64,000 nucleotides of DNA, taken from the NCBI GenBank assembly GCA_020247545.1, contig JADCIX010000027.1:1-64000 (forward strand), read 5' to 3'. Below are positions 10,074-41,029 of the stretch, one piece after another; positions within the stretch are counted from its first letter, which is position 1, and the number at the start of each line of letters is the position of its first letter. The notes beneath the pieces are model-generated. The model had not been told where the DNA came from. It made no database searches and saw nothing but the letters and a program-made list of their open reading frames with translations. The position numbers and the translations under genes were made by a program. Source of the stretch: Rhodocyclaceae bacterium. GTDB taxonomy: Bacteria > Pseudomonadota > Gammaproteobacteria > Burkholderiales > Usitatibacteraceae.

Positions 10074-10815
10074 AACCATAAGAATCGGCCTTTTCGAGCA
10101 GGGTGCGACGGTCTCCATTCGTGGCACGAAGGTCGCGACGTTGAGAACATCATTGCATGCGACTTTGGAGAGTTGGCACGCAGACATTGCGACGCTGCTA
10201 CACGCCGCCAGCACTGAGTTGCGTAAAGGCGATCGGGTACACTTGGTTGTCAGCGATTGTTTTGCCGCGACGACTACGTTGCCATGGCATTCTTCACTCT
10301 CAACCGAGGAAGAGTTGATCACTTACGCGCGACTCTGTTTCGAAAAATCGGACACGCGTGTGGACAACACTTGGGTGGTGCAGGCATATCGACCGCGCTG
10401 GCAGGCACCGGGTCTGGCGTATGCATTGCCTTGTGCCGCCGTTACGCAACTAAAGGTCGTCCTTGATGAAAAGCAAGCTGTACTTGCCTCCGTCATTCCA
10501 GTTTCAGTGGCCGCCTTTGCAGCGGAGCACGACATGCGACGCGCGCCAAAGTCCATCCACCTGTTAGCCGAGGCGTCAAGGATTTCTTGCCTTGTCTTCG
10601 AGCAAGGTATGCTTGTCTCGCGCGACGCAGAGCCTGCCGCAGAGTCTTTTGAGAAGGGGCTGAATCGCCTGTTAATGCGCTCGGAGTTGACGGACGACGC
10701 CTCAATGCGCGCCACGCTCTGGGTCAGTCAGGAGGATCAATGGGATGCGTTGGAAAGAGCAGTACGTAATGCTTGGCCGAATAGTCCGCGCCAGCGCGCA
10801 GTTTGGGTCAGGTAG
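10054..10815 (+). CDS. GspL/PilM-like cytoplasmic actin-fold protein
   Basis: A 253-residue protein starting at a GTG inside the end of gspE. The N-terminus (MLRLWPRTIRIGLFEQGATVSI) and the alternating beta/alpha pattern, with 'VHLVVSDCFAATTTLPW' and 'SIHLLAEASRISCLVFEQG', resemble the actin-like domain of GspL/PilM proteins, which bind the ATPase. It lacks a membrane segment, so it corresponds to PilM or to the cytoplasmic half of GspL; the following gene supplies the PilN-like half. Sequence similarity is weak, and the call leans on the operon order ATPase - PilM-like - PilN-like. Confidence 0.6.
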   Translation: MLRLWPRTIRIGLFEQGATVSIRGTKVATLRTSLHATLESWHADIATLLHAASTELRKGDRVHLVVSDCFAATTTLPWHSSLSTEEELITYARLCFEKSDTRVDNTWVVQAYRPRWQAPGLAYALPCAAVTQLKVVLDEKQAVLASVIPVSVAAFAAEHDMRRAPKSIHLLAEASRISCLVFEQGMLVSRDAEPAAESFEKGLNRLLMRSELTDDASMRATLWVSQEDQWDALERAVRNAWPNSPRQRAVWVR

Positions 10816-33340: not shown

Positions 33341-33919
33341 CTACGACGTCAAGAGTTTGTCCGCGCCGATTAGCGTTAATACACCCATTGCGGCAAAAAT
33401 GGCAGCAGCGATTCCATGTACTAATTTCATCGGAATCTTCGCCGCGAAATTGTTACCGATAAAAACCGCCGGCACATCGGCGATCAACATCCCCAGAGTG
33501 GTACCGGCAATTACCATTATCGGTGCGGCGTAGTGTGCTGCTAGGGCAACTGTGGCAAGCTGCGTTTTGTCGCCCATCTCCGCGAGAAAAAACGTGACAA
33601 ACGTCGCACCAAAGATACCTAGACGTTGGGCAACCTGAGTTTCTTCATCTTCGATCTTGTCGGGAATCAGTGTCCAAGCGGCCATTGTGAGAAAAGACAA
33701 GCCGAGCGCCCAACGCATGATGTGTGGACTGACCACGGAAGTGATCCACGCGCCGAGAGCACCAGCGAGGCCATGATTGATCAGGGTAGCCGTCAGAATG
33801 CCAAGAATAATTGGGGCCGGCTTCTTGAAACGCGCCGCGAGGATAAAGGCAAGCAACTGCGTTTTGTCGCCGATTTCCGCAAGCGCAACGACGCCGGTTG
33901 AAACGAGAAGTGATTCCAT
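33341..33919 (-). CDS. GDT1/UPF0016-family manganese exporter
   Basis: A 192-residue protein with six membrane segments in two inverted halves, each with the family signature: LAEIGDKTQLLAFILAARF in the first and LAEMGDKTQLATVALAAHY in the second. Bacterial members (MneA/MntX type) export Mn2+. The start is at MESLLVSTGVVALAEIGDKT (33919). The yybP-ykoY riboswitch just upstream supports both function and regulation by Mn2+. Confidence 0.92.
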   Translation of the reverse strand: MESLLVSTGVVALAEIGDKTQLLAFILAARFKKPAPIILGILTATLINHGLAGALGAWITSVVSPHIMRWALGLSFLTMAAWTLIPDKIEDEETQVAQRLGIFGATFVTFFLAEMGDKTQLATVALAAHYAAPIMVIAGTTLGMLIADVPAVFIGNNFAAKIPMKLVHGIAAAIFAAMGVLTLIGADKLLTS

Positions 33920-33979: not shown

Positions 33980-34095
33980 CACGCAGCCAAAAGTCTCGCT
34001 AAGCATATGCCGCTTGCACCATAGCGCCTGAAAGTTCGGGGTGCCAAGTCTGTTGATGCAAGCCACCCAGTGCGGGGTGAAGCTACTCCCTGATG
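33980..34095 (-). ncRNA. yybP-ykoY (Mn2+) riboswitch upstream of the manganese exporter
   Basis: On the minus strand the leader of the GDT1-family gene contains GGGAGTAGC (34091-34083), the L1-side signature of the yybP-ykoY motif. About 90 bases later comes AGCGAGACTTTTGGC (about 34000-33986), matching the L3-side CGAGACCUUUGCC signature. These two loops build the Mn2+ site. A TATAAT -10 box lies at 34110-34105, so transcription would start just before the motif. Between riboswitch and gene are about 60 bases for an expression platform. Gene ON with high Mn2+ is expected from the class. Confidence 0.85.
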
Positions 34096-34104
34096 ACACT
34101 AGAA

Positions 34105-34314: not shown

Positions 34315-34358
34315 TGGCGTCCCCACGGGGATTCGAACCCCGGTTACCGCCGTGAAAG
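34315..34358 (-). repeat. attL: 44-bp direct repeat, displaced 3' half of tRNA-Glu
   Basis: These 44 bases are identical to 40954-40997, the 3' half of the intact tRNA-Glu gene (CCA end, acceptor 3' strand, T-arm, variable loop and anticodon loop/stem 3' side). Beyond base 34358 the two copies diverge. Such a repeat at an anticodon loop is the usual crossover footprint of tyrosine integrases. Confidence 0.93.
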
Positions 34359-34467
34359 AGTTCTAACGTGGTCTAAAGTAGACACAAGTAGACTACCTAA
34401 CCCTTTGAATCGCTTGTAAATAGGGGCTTTCAAGCCTATCATTGTCTACAGCGGTCTAGCCAAGAAA

Positions 34468-34487
34468 TCTAGACACCATCTAAACAC
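34468..34487 (+). repeat. Left pair of TCTARACAC repeats (putative integrase arm sites)
   Basis: TCTAGACAC (34468-34476) and TCTAAACAC (34479-34487) start 11 bp apart, one helical turn. A related AGTAGACAC lies at 34377-34385. A matching pair sits at the other end of the island. Confidence 0.65.
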
Positions 34488-34507
34488 GGGACTTTCAAGG
34501 GGGTTCC

Positions 34508-35788
34508 ATGGCTCAGAAAATGCGCGATGGGCAGTTGGAAAAGCGATCCAACCGCCTGAAATTGCCGCTTCGCACGCGGAAATACAAAATCCTCGATACG
34601 GGCGTAGCACTGAGCTACCGCCGAACGTCTGAGGATTACGGCACATGGGCTGTTCGGCTCGTTTTGGCTGACGGCAGATACACGCTAGAGACGCTTGGCA
34701 CAGCCGACGACTACGCAGACGCCAACGGGCAAACGATCTTGAGTTTTGGGCAAGCCCAAGCCAAGGCACTCAAACGCCACAAAGAACTTCAGCAAGCCGG
34801 GGGCGTGATTAAAGCCGCGACCACGGTAAAGGAAGCCTCAGAACATTATCTGGAATGGTTCAGGACGCATAGCAAGTCCATAGCGGCCACGGAAACCACG
34901 ATCAAGGCACATATCCTGCCGACGTTCGGGGAAACGCCCTTGGAAGACCTGAAAGCCGAGCGAATCAAATCTTGGCACACCCGACTAGCGACCAAGGCCG
35001 CAAGGAAGCGAACCCGCAAAGGCGCAGCAATCGCACACCGCGCCAAGCCGGAAACCGACGACGAAAAACGCTCCCGCAAATCCACGGCAAACCGCATCCT
35101 TACCGTTTTCAAGGCGATGTTAAACAAAGCCTACGAAGACGCCCTCGTTTCAACCAACGACGCTTGGAAGCGGGTAAAGCCATTCTCAGATGTTGACGAA
35201 CCCGTGATTCGTTTTCTCAAACCCGAGGAAGCCACGCGACTAATCAACGCTTGCCCGGAAGACTTTCGCCGATTGATAAAGGCCGCACTAATGACGGGCG
35301 CTCGTTACTCCGAACTGGCCGGAATGAAGGTAGAGGACTACTCGCCCGACACAAAGCAAGTCTTTATTCGCCCGAGTAAATCAGGCAAGGGCCGACACGT
35401 TCCACTAACGACTGAGGGCGCGGCATTGTTCGCAACGTGTACCGATGGCAAGACTGGCGACGCCCTAGTTTTTCAACGCAGTGACGGCGCGGCATGGGGG
35501 AAAAATTATCAAGTTCGCCCGTTATTGGAAGCCTGCAAAGTTGCCAAGATCGCGCCCTCGATTGGGTTCCACGAATTGCGCCATACCTACGCAAGTTTTC
35601 TAGCGAACGCCGGGGCCGACTTGCTCACGATCTCAAAACTACTTGGCCACGCGGACACCCGCATAACCTCACGCCACTACGCGCACCTATGCGACAAGAC
35701 ACTTCGCAACGCTGTAGACAAGTTCCTGCCGTCACTGACAGCAGAACCTAAGACCAAAGTAACACCGATCAAACGCAAGGCCGCTTAG
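34508..35788 (+). CDS. int: Tyrosine recombinase (island integrase)
   Basis: A 426-residue site-specific recombinase. The N-terminal region (about 30-90) resembles the arm-binding domain of phage integrases. A SAM-like core-binding domain spans about 100-215. The catalytic domain holds Arg near 266 (MTGARYSELAGM), Lys in KSGKGRHVPL, HELRHTYASFLANAG near 355 (His-x-x-Arg), GHADTRITSRHYAHL with the second His and the Tyr nucleophile near 391. The ATG is preceded by aaggggg. It starts 150 bp inside attL and reads into the island. It should integrate and, with an excision factor, excise the element at tRNA-Glu. Confidence 0.95.
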   Translation: MAQKMRDGQLEKRSNRLKLPLRTRKYKILDTGVALSYRRTSEDYGTWAVRLVLADGRYTLETLGTADDYADANGQTILSFGQAQAKALKRHKELQQAGGVIKAATTVKEASEHYLEWFRTHSKSIAATETTIKAHILPTFGETPLEDLKAERIKSWHTRLATKAARKRTRKGAAIAHRAKPETDDEKRSRKSTANRILTVFKAMLNKAYEDALVSTNDAWKRVKPFSDVDEPVIRFLKPEEATRLINACPEDFRRLIKAALMTGARYSELAGMKVEDYSPDTKQVFIRPSKSGKGRHVPLTTEGAALFATCTDGKTGDALVFQRSDGAAWGKNYQVRPLLEACKVAKIAPSIGFHELRHTYASFLANAGADLLTISKLLGHADTRITSRHYAHLCDKTLRNAVDKFLPSLTAEPKTKVTPIKRKAA

Positions 35789-35818
35789 CAATTTAGACTA
35801 AAGCCTTGCAACAAAAAA

Positions 35819-35872
35819 GCCGCGCATAGGTTCGCTACCGAAAACCCATCCCCCTTGTTGGGCTTGCGCGGC
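35819..35872 (-). terminator. Long-loop hairpin after int
   Basis: GCCGCGCA (35819-35826) pairs with TGCGCGGC (35865-35872); an inner CCCA/TGGG may extend it. On the minus strand it is followed by TTTTTTG. No gene on that strand ends here, so its role is uncertain; it may instead be a leader structure for the next gene. Confidence 0.4.
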
Positions 35873-35902
35873 TTCCTCGATCAAGGGTCCCAAGGGGAAA
35901 AC

Positions 35903-36742
35903 ATGAGTGAGTCTGTTAGCGACGCCAAGGACGCGTGGGCCAAAGCAGAGGCGAAACTTAAATTGGCGCGGCGAAAGTACCTCACCGATCTGCCAAAGAA
36001 AATAGTCGCGAACCTGCCCGAGCGGAAAGTAAGTGGTATTCGATCCGCTATTCGCGAGGCAACGCAGCTCTGGAAGCAAGCGAACTCGCATCCAGATGAA
36101 AATGGGTACGTCTACGTACATGAGTCGCTCGGGCTACTTTCCTTTCCGACGCAGAAAATAAAGCTTGCAAATTGCGAGCCATGGAAGCTTGGCGTACATC
36201 GCGGTTTCGCTAGTCCTCTCAGCGTTTATCCCGAACTATTCTTTGACTACTCCAAAGTATTCGAGAGCCACGTAAAGAACATGATGCTCTATGAGTTTTT
36301 CGCGGTAGCAATAGTTGATCAGTGGAAAGTTGCGCACATTCAAGAACTTTCTACCTACCACTCTTGGATGACTAACTCGCTGGTAGATTGGTTAATTCAT
36401 TTGCGACCGACAGGCTGGAAAGGCGTGGAGCCAACCGCAGCAATTTTCTACTCCATCCACGATGATCGAATTAAGAGGGAATACGAGAAGCTAAAGGAGC
36501 AAAAGGAAAAGCAAATCCGCAAAACCGACCAGTCGATAATTACCTCCGTGAAAGAAGGTGCGACCGCCCTGTTTTCTAAACACGCTACTTGGTCAGGTAC
36601 GCGAATTGCCAAAGAATTGAAGGAAAAAGACGTAGTCGGGACGCTGCCAAGTGAAACGCAAATCCGAACGCTAATCACAACGCACTGCCCACAGATTCCA
36701 AAGCAGAAAGCCGGACGGAAACGAGGTCAAACGAAAAAATAA
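35903..36742 (+). CDS. Island hypothetical protein (279 residues)
   Basis: The start is set at the ATG at 35903, eight bases after aagggga; a TTG 48 bases upstream is less likely. No family is recognised. Residues about 1-60 are helical and charged (DAKDAWAKAEAKLKLARRKY). A mixed region of about 60-195 with aromatic clusters follows (YVYVHESLGLLSF, FFDYSKVFESHVKNMMLYEFF). A Lys/Glu-rich coiled stretch lies at about 200-225 (RIKREYEKLKEQKEKQIRK), and a C-terminal helix-turn-helix-like segment (TWSGTRIAKELKEKD, LPSETQIRTLI) ends in a basic tail. It may bind nucleic acid through the C-terminus; this is inferred. Confidence 0.7.
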   Translation: MSESVSDAKDAWAKAEAKLKLARRKYLTDLPKKIVANLPERKVSGIRSAIREATQLWKQANSHPDENGYVYVHESLGLLSFPTQKIKLANCEPWKLGVHRGFASPLSVYPELFFDYSKVFESHVKNMMLYEFFAVAIVDQWKVAHIQELSTYHSWMTNSLVDWLIHLRPTGWKGVEPTAAIFYSIHDDRIKREYEKLKEQKEKQIRKTDQSIITSVKEGATALFSKHATWSGTRIAKELKEKDVVGTLPSETQIRTLITTHCPQIPKQKAGRKRGQTKK

Positions 36743-36745
36743 TTC

Positions 36746-36799
36746 GCGGTTTGTCCAACCGCAATCAGAATTCGCGGCTTGCATGACTGCGAATTTTTT
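36746..36799 (+). terminator. Tandem hairpins ending in a T run after the 279-residue gene
   Basis: GCGGTT-TGTCC-AACCGC (36746-36762) is followed by AATTCGC...GCGAATT (36769-36795) and TTTT. The second stem is the more terminator-like. Both stems begin in repeated AATTCGCGG segments. Confidence 0.6.
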
Positions 36800-36861
36800 G
36801 CACGTTTTAATGCCCCTACTGAGACGACGTTGTGTCGCCTCAAACACCAATAGGAGCAGTC

Positions 36862-37059
36862 ATGTATTCAACACCAACAGCTCAGGCCGCCGGATGGACA
36901 ATTCCAGACTGGTGCGCCTCAACGAGCATTTCTCGTGCTTCGTTCTACTTGCTCGCACAACGACCGCGAACTGTGAAGCTCGGACGCCGAACCGTCGTGA
37001 TCGAAAGCCCCGACGCATACCTTCAGCGAATCGCTGATACGCAACTGGAGGCCGCATGA
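36862..37059 (+). CDS. AlpA-like/MerR-type small DNA-binding protein
   Basis: A 65-residue protein, ATG at 36862 with aggag five bases upstream. The core GWTIPDWCASTSISRASFYLL, PRTVKLGRRTVVIESPDAYLQRIA has the AlpA/excisionase winged-helix pattern (helix-turn-helix, then a wing with K-G-RR). Such proteins act as transcriptional activators or excision factors in islands and satellites. It overlaps the next gene by 4 bp (ATGA). Confidence 0.75.
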   Translation: MYSTPTAQAAGWTIPDWCASTSISRASFYLLAQRPRTVKLGRRTVVIESPDAYLQRIADTQLEAA

Positions 37060-37424
37060 AGGACGATCCACCGGACGACGAAAAAACAAAAGGCGCTGCC
37101 CCCTTCCCAGAGAACGCGCCTTTCGAAGACCAACAAAGTGATGATAACAAATCGCTGAAGTGGCGTACAACCCTTTCGCATCTTCTTAGGGGGCCGCGTC
37201 ACCGCTTTGATGCTGAGCGCTGGGGAGATCATGCGATCCCTTCAACGGTTAGCAGCCTTCAGCGAGACTACGGCTTAAAGATCAATCGAGAGTGGCGAAA
37301 AGTTCCTACTCGATTCGGCACTTACTGCCTTGTCAAAGCATATTGGGTTGATGACCTCTCGCGAAATCACGCCATGCGACTTGTCGCACGTCGTAAGCGC
37401 AGGAAGAACGGGGGCAAGGTATGA
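37056..37424 (+). CDS. Island hypothetical protein with possible winged-helix domain
   Basis: A 122-residue protein. The N-terminal 40 residues are acidic and Pro-rich, probably disordered. The rest (LLRGPRHRFDAERWGDHAIPSTVSSLQRDYGLKINREWRKVPTRFG, in parts) has a pattern seen in small winged-helix proteins from phage-related islands, and the C-terminus is very basic (RLVARRKRRKNGG). A DNA-binding role is likely but inferred. It overlaps both neighbours by 4 bp, so the three genes 36862-37915 form a translationally coupled unit. Confidence 0.65.
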   Translation: MKDDPPDDEKTKGAAPFPENAPFEDQQSDDNKSLKWRTTLSHLLRGPRHRFDAERWGDHAIPSTVSSLQRDYGLKINREWRKVPTRFGTYCLVKAYWVDDLSRNHAMRLVARRKRRKNGGKV

Positions 37425-37915
37425 CGGCAACCGTTCGCAAACTTGCGGTAAAGGGCCTAGAAGGCGCGATTGATTTCGACACCAGCAACCGCGCACCCTC
37501 GATACCACCGGGGCGCTACGAGGCCATATATGAGCATCACGAAACGAAGTTTATTTATCAATGCCCGAAAGTGTTTGTCTGGTTCAGGATCGTTAGTCCT
37601 GGCCCTGCCTTCGACACGATGGTTTACCGAGCGTATCGCGTTCGGGCGCTCACAAGCAGACAAGGACGAAATGGTGGATTTAAAGCTTCTCGCGGTTCAG
37701 ACGTTTATCACGATCTCGGGCGCATCTTGGATATACGACTTCGCCCGGATCGCGTTAGCGCAGCGTCATTACGTGGTGTCGTGGTTAGCGTCAGCGTCCG
37801 AAACGTCGTGAAGGATCACAAGCAACGCCCACTATTGGCATGGGATCAGTACAGCGTTATCGACAAGTTGCTATTCGCTGAGACTGAAACGAAGCATTTA
37901 GCAATTAGCAGTTAG
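37421..37915 (+). CDS. Island hypothetical protein (164 residues)
   Basis: No family is recognised with confidence. The pattern is mainly beta-strands (GRYEAIYEHHETKFIYQCPKVFVWFRIV in parts, ASLRGVVVSVSVRNVVKD), with a compact body and a short C-terminal tail. Third gene of the coupled AlpA-like unit. Similar-sized beta-rich proteins next to AlpA genes occur in islands of Burkholderiales; function is unknown. Confidence 0.65.
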   Translation: MTATVRKLAVKGLEGAIDFDTSNRAPSIPPGRYEAIYEHHETKFIYQCPKVFVWFRIVSPGPAFDTMVYRAYRVRALTSRQGRNGGFKASRGSDVYHDLGRILDIRLRPDRVSAASLRGVVVSVSVRNVVKDHKQRPLLAWDQYSVIDKLLFAETETKHLAISS

Positions 37916-38154
37916 CTGGTAGCAAGCAGCTGACAGCAGATACCTGCTTAAAACCTTGGGAGGCCGCGCAAATAAACGGATTCCAAGGGGTGCTTGGCAA
38001 CCTGCTAACAGGTTTGAACAAGTTGTAAAGGATCGGGCCTTGGATAAGAGTAGTCGGCCCGTAACATGGAAAGCTGAAAGACTGCGCCGGGGGCCTAAGA
38101 ACCCCCGGTTCCAAAACTGTCTAGCCTTTAATAAAGGGAGGAAAAGGACAAAAG
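37916..38154. other. Island spacer with TTAGCA-rich segment
   Basis: Short irregular repeats of TTAGCA/TAGCA/CAGC occur at about 37897-37935, partly inside the end of the preceding gene. They could be regulator sites but have no fixed spacing. A strong ribosome site (gggagg) at the right end belongs to the next gene. Confidence 0.3.
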
Positions 38155-38634
38155 ATGAAGAACGCGATCACAAAAAGCACAGGCTCACGATATACGGACT
38201 CACATAGACGCGAAGCCGCGATGACTTTCTTAGTCACGGGCAATTTGCGAGCAACCGCAACCCAGACAGGCGTAAACGAACGCACGTTATCGGATTGGGT
38301 TAAGGCCGATTGGTGGGAGCCATTGCTTCAGACGCTCCACTACGAAAAAGGCCGCGAACTTGATAGCAAGCTCAGCCAGATAATTGACCGCGCCCTCGAC
38401 GAAGTTGCCGACCGTCTAGTGAACGGCGATCACAAGATAGGCCGCGATGGAAACCTTGTCCGCGTTCCAGTTCCCGCCAAGGAAGCGGCTATCGTTGCCG
38501 CTGTTTGTTTCGATAAGAGGCAGATTATTCGTAACCTACCGACCGCGATCACTCAGGACAAAGACTACCTTCCACGATTGGCAGCGCAGCTACGAGCCGG
38601 ATTGTTAGCTAATACCCCGGGGGGAGGGGGTTAG
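38155..38634 (+). CDS. Terminase small subunit-like / homeodomain-like DNA-binding protein
   Basis: A 159-residue protein. Residues about 15-60 form a helix-turn-helix (HRREAAMTFLVTGNLRATATQTGVNERTLSDWVKADWWEP), like the N-terminal DNA-binding part of phage small terminases. The body has a helical LSQIIDRALDEVADRLVNGDHKI and PVPAKEAAIVAAVCFDKRQIIRNLP, a pattern common in phage 'terminase small subunit-like' proteins. No large terminase is present, which would fit a satellite redirecting a helper phage's packaging. It could also be a general homeodomain-type regulator. The C-terminus ends in a Gly run. Confidence 0.6.
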   Translation: MKNAITKSTGSRYTDSHRREAAMTFLVTGNLRATATQTGVNERTLSDWVKADWWEPLLQTLHYEKGRELDSKLSQIIDRALDEVADRLVNGDHKIGRDGNLVRVPVPAKEAAIVAAVCFDKRQIIRNLPTAITQDKDYLPRLAAQLRAGLLANTPGGGG

Positions 38635-38760
38635 ATCGCATTCAGTTTTTTCATGATCGTGCTTCCTTCAACGACAGAAAATCAAAAGGAAGTCTTGTTG
38701 CCGCATCAAGAAAACACGAATATTGAGGGCTGCCAACTTATCGCGATAGTTTGAGGGCGA

Positions 38761-38782
38761 CAAAAAACCCGCCGGAGCGGGT
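38761..38782 (-). terminator. Terminator of the protease operon
   Basis: On the minus strand ACCCGC-TCCG-GCGGGT is followed directly by TTTTTTG. It lies 5 bp beyond the stop of the 70-residue gene. Confidence 0.9.
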
Positions 38783-38786
38783 CTTG

Positions 38787-38999
38787 TTAATACGCTTTTA
38801 CTTTATTGAGGCTTTCGACTGGGAACCCAGCCATTGCATCGAGCGGCAAAATATAGTCGCTCGGCTTAATGTGTTCATACATATCTGCCAATCTGCTGGC
38901 CTCTCTAATGGCGGCGTCAGCGAGTAATTTTTTGCTTACTTCCGCCTCGGCGGACTCAAGGCACTTTTCGACCATTTCCGCTAGCGTTGCTTGGGTCAT
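38787..38999 (-). CDS. Small partner protein of the Clp-fold protease (70 residues)
   Basis: A 70-residue, mostly helical and acidic protein (LAEMVEKCLESAEAEVSKKLLADAAIREASRLADMYEHI) with a C-terminal tail. No family is recognised. Its ATG overlaps the stop of the protease gene by 4 bp (ATGA) and a strong terminator follows, so the two are co-translated. It might be an inhibitor, adaptor or specificity factor of the protease; this is inference from layout. Confidence 0.7.
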   Translation of the reverse strand: MTQATLAEMVEKCLESAEAEVSKKLLADAAIREASRLADMYEHIKPSDYILPLDAMAGFPVESLNKVKAY

Positions 39000-39871
39000 A
39001 TGACGGTCTCCTTCAGATGTGAGTGTAAATAAAACGCTAACCCCATGCGATCAGTGTACGCGGTAAGTAAATCGTTATAACCCCGAATTGCGCTGCTTAA
39101 TCCGAGGTTATTCGAGTAATCGTCAATTTCCAGACCAATTTGCTTTAGCTTCTTGATGTCCAACGCACGGCCATGAGAAAACCATTTTTTATGGTCGGCA
39201 AGATCTGTAGCGACAACTTTAGCGCGGTTTATTTTTTCGTCCTGTGTTACGGGCTGGCCAGCGTTGTGGGTTCTGTGCTTGGTCCAAGTGCTAAATTTGT
39301 GCTCTGCTAACCAAGTCTTGAGCAGGTCAATCGAGAGGTTCTTCGCCTGTTCGTAAAGTGCCAACTTCGCCAAATCCAAGCCCTTAAGAAACACAACATC
39401 TGCGGGAGTTAGATTGCTTCGTTTTGTAATCTCTTCTACCTTATCCAGATATCCTAATGCCGCAACGTATCCGCTCCCATCGGGAGCAAGCACTTGCGGA
39501 TCAATGGGTCCAAGTGCCGACGAATAGTCCATGTATATCTTGTCCCCAGACATACAAAAAATCGTGCCTGCGGACATTGCCAAATCCGGCACAATAAAAT
39601 TCACCTTTGTATAAAAGTTTCGAACCACCGTAACGAAGCGCTCCGTGGTTTCGGCAGACCCGCCCGGGGTGCGCAGAACAATGGAAAGTGTTTGCTCTGT
39701 TCTTTTAGATTTGGCCTTTACATCTTCAACGTAATTTCGGAAGAGCCGAAAGTATTGGGGATGAATTTGCCCGAAATAGCAAATCACATCAGAGCCCAGT
39801 AAATTCTCTAATTCCTTCCCTTTTTCGTTGATGTGGTGAAGGATTGTGTGGTCTAAATCAGCTGGATTCAC
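38996..39871 (-). CDS. SDH-type Clp-fold serine protease
   Basis: A 291-residue protein with the crotonase/ClpP-like fold of the serine dehydrogenase proteinase family. Signatures are SIVLRTPGGSAETTERF (residues about 63-79, oxyanion-hole glycines), FIVPDLAMSAGTIFCMSGD with the likely nucleophile Ser100, and YMDYSSALGPIDPQVLAP (121-130). The C-terminal 120 residues are helical with a charged HRTHNAGQPVTQDEK segment. There is no signal peptide or membrane anchor, so it should be cytoplasmic, unlike SppA. Encoded against the direction of the other island genes, as cargo genes often are. Substrate unknown. Confidence 0.85.
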   Translation of the reverse strand: MNPADLDHTILHHINEKGKELENLLGSDVICYFGQIHPQYFRLFRNYVEDVKAKSKRTEQTLSIVLRTPGGSAETTERFVTVVRNFYTKVNFIVPDLAMSAGTIFCMSGDKIYMDYSSALGPIDPQVLAPDGSGYVAALGYLDKVEEITKRSNLTPADVVFLKGLDLAKLALYEQAKNLSIDLLKTWLAEHKFSTWTKHRTHNAGQPVTQDEKINRAKVVATDLADHKKWFSHGRALDIKKLKQIGLEIDDYSNNLGLSSAIRGYNDLLTAYTDRMGLAFYLHSHLKETVI

Positions 39872-40265
39872 GGCTCGCTCGCCAATAAGTTGCCGAAGAA
39901 TAGCAGATTTCTAAACGTAGCAAGCTTTTTCCAGCGGATGGGATTTAGAGCCGTCGGCTCGTGAATTTCGCGCGAATCAACGCTGCGCGGTGTGCGCTCG
40001 CCCGGCTAGCCCAGCTACTATTAGACAATCGAAAAATGCTCAAATCCCAGCCGACAAGTCAGCCTAACAACTCTTTGTAAATCAAGGACTTAGGCTTTGA
40101 TACAAAGCCCTTTCCAATCAACAACTTAACGATGAGTCAATGTGCCTTAGAAATCAATGGTTTGCGTTAATTCAACCAGTCGGTAACATGGCTTCCGCAC
40201 CCAAAAACAACGGCAGGTTCAAATGTCCCAAATCCGTGAATGACCTTTGTGAGGAAACTTTCATC
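39872..40265. other. Island intergenic region, about 390 bp
   Basis: It lies between the protease gene (minus) and the exported-protein gene (plus) and should hold both promoters. An in-frame upstream extension of the exported protein to 40140 exists but would bury its signal peptide. I see no RNA gene or clear promoter boxes. Confidence 0.45.
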
Positions 40266-40859
40266 ATGAATCTAGCCTTCAGGTGGAGAGCTTGTCTCGC
40301 GCTTATTTTAGTTATTGGCATTAGCGCAGCGGGCGCAGAAGAATTGCCCGTTACTGAAAAGCTTCTGCAAAAGACGGGCGTTAATTTGGAAACTCATATT
40401 GGCGGACAGATATTCAAAGTGAAGCGAACTGGTCCGCTACCAAACATTCTGGGCAAAGCGGATTGGTTCGGCAGAACAGTAGATAAAGGATTTTTGGAAC
40501 TACGCTTCCACGCTTTTGCCCCCGACAAGACAGTTGTGCTCAGACTGGTAGACGTCGACACGAGGTCGAATGAAACAACGATGAATCGAAATCAGGTTGA
40601 AACGACAAGACTCAACGGCGAGATTCGAACCGGCCCCGGAAGCAATACGTCGCAAATATCGGGGACAGCGACAACGATCCGTTCCCCTGCCGCTGGCGTC
40701 AACGAGATTCTCCCGCCCAACACTACAGAGATCAGGTTAGACCTCAACAAACGGCGCACGCTGAAGATTGGAACTGTAGTTTTAAAAGTTGACGACGCGG
40801 ACGAAGTCTCCCTTTCATATTCACTTGCTCTTGCCGATGATGAAGGCACGAAAAAATGA
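40266..40859 (+). CDS. Exported island protein of unknown function
   Basis: The start at 40266 (MNLAFRWRACLALILVIGISAAGAEELP) gives a normal signal peptide with cleavage after SAAGA. The 197-residue product has a mature part that is beta-rich (GQIFKVKRTGPLPNILGKADWFGRTVDKGFLELRF in parts) with a Thr/Ser/Asn-rich middle. No family is recognised. It lies at the right end of the island just before the arm-type repeats and terminator, a typical cargo position. Confidence 0.65.
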   Translation: MNLAFRWRACLALILVIGISAAGAEELPVTEKLLQKTGVNLETHIGGQIFKVKRTGPLPNILGKADWFGRTVDKGFLELRFHAFAPDKTVVLRLVDVDTRSNETTMNRNQVETTRLNGEIRTGPGSNTSQISGTATTIRSPAAGVNEILPPNTTEIRLDLNKRRTLKIGTVVLKVDDADEVSLSYSLALADDEGTKK

Positions 40860-40877
40860 AAGACGTTCGCGGCGAAA

Positions 40878-40897
40878 TCTAAACACGATCTAGACAC
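40878..40897 (+). repeat. Right pair of TCTARACAC repeats (putative integrase arm sites)
   Basis: TCTAAACAC (40878-40886) and TCTAGACAC (40889-40897) start 11 bp apart, in the same orientation as the left pair at 34468 but with the two variants swapped. They lie 57 bp from attR. Confidence 0.65.
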
Positions 40898-40910
40898 GGC
40901 AGAAAGACAA

Positions 40911-40941
40911 ACGGCCTACATCACTGTAGGCCGTTGTTTTT
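40911..40941. terminator. Bidirectional terminator at the island's right end
   Basis: ACGGCCTAC-ATCACT-GTAGGCCGT is followed by TTGTTTTT on the plus strand and TTTGTCTTT on the minus strand. It can end the exported-protein transcript and, from the other side, the tRNA-Glu transcript, replacing the terminator displaced to 34272. Confidence 0.88.
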
Positions 40942-40953
40942 ACTACGTATTGC

Positions 40954-41029
40954 TGGCGTCCCCACGGGGATTCGAACCCCGGTTACCGCCGTGAAAGGGC
41001 GATGTCCTAGGCCTCTAGACGATGGGGAC
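40954..41029 (-). tRNA. tRNA-Glu (anticodon TTC), island target; 3' half = attR
   Basis: The minus strand gives GTCCCC...GGGGAC acceptor pairing, a D-arm with ATCGTCTAGAGGCCTAGGA, anticodon stem TCGCC/GGCGG around CTTTCAC (anticodon TTC), T-arm GGGGTTCGAATCCCC and encoded CCA at 40954-40956. Bases 40954-40997 are the attR copy of the 44-bp repeat, so the island restores a complete tRNA. Confidence 0.97.

Follow-up and report, generated by a model that had tools for sequence, protein, structure and literature searches.

Is the compact integrase-bearing island at a tRNA-Glu gene of a Rhodocyclaceae bacterium a phage satellite, moved by a helper phage, or an integrative island of a more ordinary kind? 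We addressed this question in a window of 64,000 nucleotides (positions 1–64,000 of contig JADCIX010000027.1, assembly GCA_020247545.1), for which an original prediction had proposed a satellite of a reduced or new type. A repeat search found perfect 44-bp direct repeats at 34315–34358 and 40954–40997, and the island measures 6,639 bp from the start of the left repeat to the start of the right one. The right repeat comprises the first 44 nt of the interval of a minus-strand tRNA-Glu gene (40954–41029), that is, its 3′ part, and this coincidence with the tRNA-Glu 3′ end indicates that the island inserted there and left the tRNA whole. G+C content was 0.46–0.55 within the island and about 0.55–0.57 outside it. 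In a sister species of the same genus (G069), the same flanks and tRNA-Glu were found within 1.2 kb and without an island, representing an empty site.

The plus strand of the island carries, from left to right, a gene for a tyrosine integrase of 426 aa (int, 34508–35788; PF00589, E = 6e-25), an int-alpA RNA, a gene that we call X (35903–36742; 279 aa, with a weak C-terminal helix-turn-helix), an AlpA-like regulator or excisionase gene (36862–37059), and the genes of proteins of 122 aa (p122, 37056–37424) and 164 aa (p164, 37421–37915), followed by a gene for a 159-aa small-terminase (TerS) homologue (38155–38634). All of the island genes are open, coupled, and enclosed by the perfect attachment repeats; the AlpA, p122, and p164 genes overlap by 4 nt each (ATGA). 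The original prediction proved right on the 44-bp repeats, in the lengths of these reading frames (426, 279, 65, 122, 164, and 159 aa), and in the coupling of the three-gene unit, and its claims that structural genes and a primase are absent were also borne out. Searches with Pfam, PHROGs, and NCBIfam found no primase and no portal, capsid, TerL, tail, or lysis gene in the island, and X, p122, p164, and TerS occupy the space of the absent primase. Neither a capsid-size gene nor a pac or cos site was recognized in the island. Single-sequence profile scans (Pfam, PHROGs, NCBIfam, PADLOC) gave no name to p122, p164, X, or TerS.

The int-alpA RNA (RF02996; 35819–35886, plus strand), which did not appear in the original prediction, scored 51 bits with its covariance model compared to a gathering score of 35.8 bits (E = 1.4e-8), placing it within the Rfam family, where it is entered as an sRNA. 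It sits between int and X, and X starts 17 nt past it. Islands with this RNA were found in 59 of 250 genomes of the order. At 52 of 59 loci, an ORF of 100 aa or more had its start codon 8–32 nt past the RNA, compared to 22% at random places, and these data suggest that the RNA is the 5′ leader of X. For layout comparison, we fetched another 60 loci with the int-alpA RNA from this order (L122–L181). Their usual layout was int, RNA, X, AlpA, with an X gene usual in this place, and a primase-sized ORF (at least 470 aa) lay within 4 kb at 35 of the 50 int-alpA loci with enough sequence; the sampled islands therefore mostly carry such an ORF, whereas the window island does not. Neither p164 nor the island-type TerS was present in any of the 60 sampled islands, indicating that the RNA marks a wider class. 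The AlpA-like ORF encodes 65 aa, or 75 aa from an upstream GTG, and matched PF05930 with E = 0.012, under the curated cut-off. In satellites, homologues of AlpA function as activators or as excision factors (PMC6092414, PMC10803314).

The adjoining gene provides a link to a known satellite. Among 50,697 phage records, p122, a probable DNA-binding protein, had a single match (43.5% identity, E = 2e-8; E = 1.7e-18 with a profile), the p04 protein of the Pseudomonas satellite phiAH14b (KU708005), whose gene lies directly 3′ of AlpA in that element. The phiAH14b genome was reported to be packed inside capsids of prophage AH14a, its helper (PMC4936722). Like the island, phiAH14b has the order int–X–AlpA–p122 homologue and lacks structural genes; unlike the island, it is 16.8 kb long, encodes a primase and helicase, lacks p164, and has a C4-type antisense RNA in place of the int-alpA RNA, and its authors identified no TerS (PMC4936722). 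An order-wide search recovered p122 from another four genomes, not all of whose islands include phage genes, and other p122 islands are those at loci L020, L188, L189, and L190. L188 (G046), from a bacterium of another family, is a p122 island in the same tRNA-Glu neighbourhood, beside tRNA-Glu, tRNA-Ala, and gltX, and includes a 1,618-aa LPD38 polyvalent protein. L190 (2789–13640; G267), in the same order of bacteria, is a cf-PICI-like element at tmRNA that shares int, int-alpA RNA, X, AlpA, and p122 with the island but differs in having genes for a portal, TerL, a Terminase_4-like TerS, and head completion.

An AlphaFold2 model of p164 computed from six sequences (pLDDT 71) has five strands, the third and fourth separated by a helix, and this order, as in an OB fold, leads us to predict an OB fold for p164. 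Foldseek aligned the model to 75 viral models at E < 1e-3 (best E to 9e-7), including an annotated phage SSB and several DUF669 proteins, and its top PDB match was PrgE, which we take to be an OB-fold ssDNA-binding protein. By its predicted structure, p164 is likely to be a single-strand-DNA-binding protein. By sequence, p164 had no match in plasmids, INPHARED phages, or three IMG/VR scans, its relatives used as queries found nothing in phages, viral-contig scans with p164, p164 profiles, or the island integrase gave no matches, and a PDB sequence search returned no convincing relative of p164, TerS, or the island's protease. One p164 match in another genome (G038, locus L005; E = 9e-4) was rejected as chance, as its frame lies inside a host gene.

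The stretch 3′ of p164 is conserved and non-coding. Window positions 37916–38118 (plus strand) align to positions 2690–2900 of locus L083 in a same-locus relative (G189), with 87–89% identity in the two best blocks, and the counterpart in another p164 island (L015) lies at about 10104–10195. A hairpin loop motif, TTGGnTAARAGTAGT, is found at a like distance from p164 in the window and L015 and, very nearly so, in G189, and a 14-mer in the stretch after p164 is shared with locus L021. RNAalifold gave no support for this hairpin, with 1 of 14 pairs covarying. The stretch is possibly an origin, a pac site, or an RNA.

To place the 159-aa protein, which has no good Pfam or PHROG match and for which a single-sequence viral scan recovered no relatives, we searched IMG/VR with a four-row profile and fetched 47 loci. 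TerL lay 0.1–2.8 kb downstream of the TerS relative on the same strand in 47 of 47; these loci are not independent, yet they span several divergent TerL groups (40–86% identity to two TerL queries). Three phage or prophage loci were inspected besides these (L002, L003, L011): a TerS relative also precedes TerL in MW202796 and in a prophage contig of G057, and in OK172329 a gene with a terminase RNaseH-like domain lies directly downstream of the relative. Three TerLs next to this family (L003, L011, L036) contain a Terminase_6C domain. Because the relatives at the 47 IMG/VR loci and the three inspected ones adjoin TerL on its upstream side, the 159-aa protein belongs, on sequence grounds, to the small-terminase family; the relatives of what had been called a TerS-like protein are phage genes beside TerL rather than non-phage regulators. 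Island TerS is 19–33% identical to its phage relatives (about 175–275 aa) and retains the invariant columns W54, R87, N90, and G91; most of the C-terminal tail found in those relatives is missing from it. Its AlphaFold2 fold (pLDDT 78) consists of a helix-turn-helix, a long helix, and a β-hairpin, and Foldseek ranked G20c TerS 1–3 in the PDB, weakly (E > 0.3). The best match of the island protein is TerS of an IMG/VR phage contig (L036, 1–1243) that also holds the edge of an integrase gene, 39 aa that are 72% identical to the island integrase, about 350 bp before TerS. On the evidence of this integrase edge, phages of this kind may use the island's attachment site, and the L036 lineage is a candidate helper. 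When the host genome was searched with one query, no TerL of the corresponding family was found.

We next consider relatives of the island itself. At the same tRNA-Glu locus, G189 has a decayed allele with p122 (75%), a frameshifted p164 (71–80%), an IS110-type transposase element, and SIR2 and ADP-ribosylglycohydrolase genes. An island in G113, of the same genus, has an integrase 82% identical and an AlpA-like protein 84% identical to those of the window, but its downstream part contains a CHC2-type primase fragment and an AAA_25 helicase, indicating that the integration module is shared across the genus and that the replication part is exchanged. In other proteobacteria, p164 is present in sparse, compact int–X–AlpA islands (L015, L016, L017, L020, L021). 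L015 (G454), adjoining mnmE, has the order int–161 aa–AlpA–87 aa–p164 and no TerS; p164 also occurs without TerS in the G189 allele, and TerS is therefore not obligatory in the p164 family. In L020 (G705), the order is int–280 aa–AlpA–p122–73 aa–p164–184 aa–type I restriction genes, and no phage match was found for the 184-aa protein that takes the place of TerS. In L017, int is followed, further downstream, by p164, a 62-aa protein, and a TerS of PF03592 (Terminase_2) that is unrelated to the window TerS. Hence the gene order is not unique to this genome, as int–X–AlpA–p122–p164 recurs in L020, int–X–AlpA–small–p164 in L015, and p122–p164 at the G189 tRNA-Glu. L021 (6368–17632; Salinisphaera sp. 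Q1T1-3, NZ_QZWD01000001.1) spans 11.2 kb between 66-bp tRNA-Leu repeats and encodes int, X, a helix-turn-helix protein, p164 (44% identical), and then a major capsid protein E (PF03864, E = 1e-87) and a tape measure (E = 2e-77), with no portal or TerL recognized; it may be a satellite able to redirect the size of heads and tails.

Compared with known satellite classes, the island has the attachment sites, integrase, and incomplete virion gene set of phage satellites in the broad sense. It also has the AlpA (or MerR) regulator of Gram-negative PICIs, sub-threshold in Pfam and assigned from its 84% identity to the G113 protein and its conserved place. It lacks the primase/Rep with adjacent replication origin of that class, the primase of the int–alpA–primase set and the fis-adjacent site of PICMIs (its site being tRNA-Glu), any family match to the P4 alpha primase or the psu, delta, and sid genes of P4-type elements, and the capsid, portal, and TerL genes of cf-PICIs. 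As it thus lacks a tested feature of each of PICI, PICMI, P4, and cf-PICI, we file the island under none of them. Gram-negative PICIs resemble it in their left integrase, AlpA, rightward core transcription, accessory genes, and, in some, TerS; the island differs from them in lacking a primase/Rep module and in its size of 6.6 kb, and an OB-fold protein like p164 and this TerS family are unreported there (PMC6092414). PICMIs require a primase, sit at fis, and have a typical gene list without TerS (PMC10803314), whereas the island sits at tRNA-Glu, has TerS and a predicted OB-fold protein, and has no primase. We infer that the island works like a PICI-type satellite. Its own TerS and likely SSB combined with the absence of a primase appear to form a make-up undescribed in the satellite families compared here from open-access papers.

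We consider it probable, at roughly 70%, that the island at tRNA-Glu is a phage satellite, still intact, that is amplified and packed via a helper. The TerS relatives beside TerL and the recurring gene order support the satellite originally proposed, and with no primase the description of a reduced or new type also holds. In the proposed mechanism, a helper phage would switch on AlpA, AlpA and Int would excise the island, p164 would coat single-stranded DNA, and priming from the helper or host replication machinery would replace an own primase, amplifying the island to concatemers. Island TerS would then recognize the island's own packaging site and recruit helper TerL, and helper capsids would be filled with several island copies. 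With a helper head of about 44–50 kb, a figure taken from the sizes of MW202796 and OK172329, a 6.6-kb unit would be packed as about seven tandem copies. PICMIs are reported to be packed as concatemers (PMC10803314). The helpers are likely to be phages with the TerS/TerL family of the 47 IMG/VR contigs, OK172329, and MW202796.

An improbable alternative is that a generic integrative island took up terS from a phage and moves rarely, by generalized transduction or transformation and without dedicated helper hijacking. Jumbo phages are known to carry integrase islands without transfer genes (PMC12595487), and, as shown above, int-alpA-RNA islands are common in the order and none of the 60 sampled has this TerS or p164. 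However, the unrelated TerS close behind p164 in L017 and the capsid and tape measure of L021 speak against such an origin, since random capture is hard to invoke for repeated phage-packaging genes beside one core, and p122 matches only a reported satellite among phage records.

It is quite unlikely that TerS is instead a decoy that competes with phage TerS, making this a defence island that protects the host rather than packing itself. The missing C-terminal tail would suit a decoy, as would the protease in the cargo and the SIR2 and ADP-ribosylglycohydrolase genes of the related allele, but island TerS keeps conserved DNA-binding and core residues, PADLOC detected no defence system in the island, and satellites commonly combine interference with self-packaging. 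Least credible is a decayed remnant of an L036-type prophage with related integrase and TerS, for although the L036 integrase edge and best TerS match would fit, the island's coupled genes are all open and lie between perfect repeats, AlpA, p122, p164, and the int-alpA RNA were not found at the L036 phage locus, and the same order occurs in other islands without a phage remnant (L020). The expectation that the int–RNA–X–AlpA–p122–p164 module occurs in several satellite islands and in no full prophage held in part.

Returning to the reading of the island as a phage satellite, it would be a candidate satellite beyond well-studied hosts, and int-alpA, a curated orphan RNA, would now be tied to satellite control modules. 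More tentatively, and at less than even odds, it may belong to a previously undescribed, primase-less satellite family of Proteobacteria whose core is int, X, AlpA, p122, and the OB-fold protein p164. Behind p164, members of this family would have a slot for interchangeable helper-hijacking genes, filled by TerS of either of two unrelated types or by a capsid gene and a tape measure. They would then depend on the helper or host for priming and supply for themselves only an SSB-like protein and a packaging selector. Named phage groups become testable as helpers, and with packaging genes swapping beside a constant core, the minimum satellite gene set becomes a testable question. Most satellite finders rely on primase and known TerS models; with no primase and a TerS barely seen by Pfam and PHROGs, relatives of the island would be missed by them.

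The remaining genes of the island are its cargo. On the opposite strand, a ClpP-fold SDH-type serine protease of 291 aa (38996–39871, minus strand; PF01972, E = 1e-15; phrog_11747, E = 1e-55), not identified in the original prediction, is encoded with a 70-aa protein (38787–38999, minus strand) that has no family match and whose gene overlaps the protease gene by 4 nt. A 197-aa protein with a signal-peptide-like N-terminus and no family match (40266–40859, plus strand) is also cargo by our reading, and this protein and the protease pair perhaps act against other phages. Outside the left repeat, the adjoining host gene (33341–33919) encodes a 192-aa membrane protein, probably a manganese exporter, and upstream of it lies a yybP-ykoY manganese riboswitch (34001–34103, minus strand; 51 bits).
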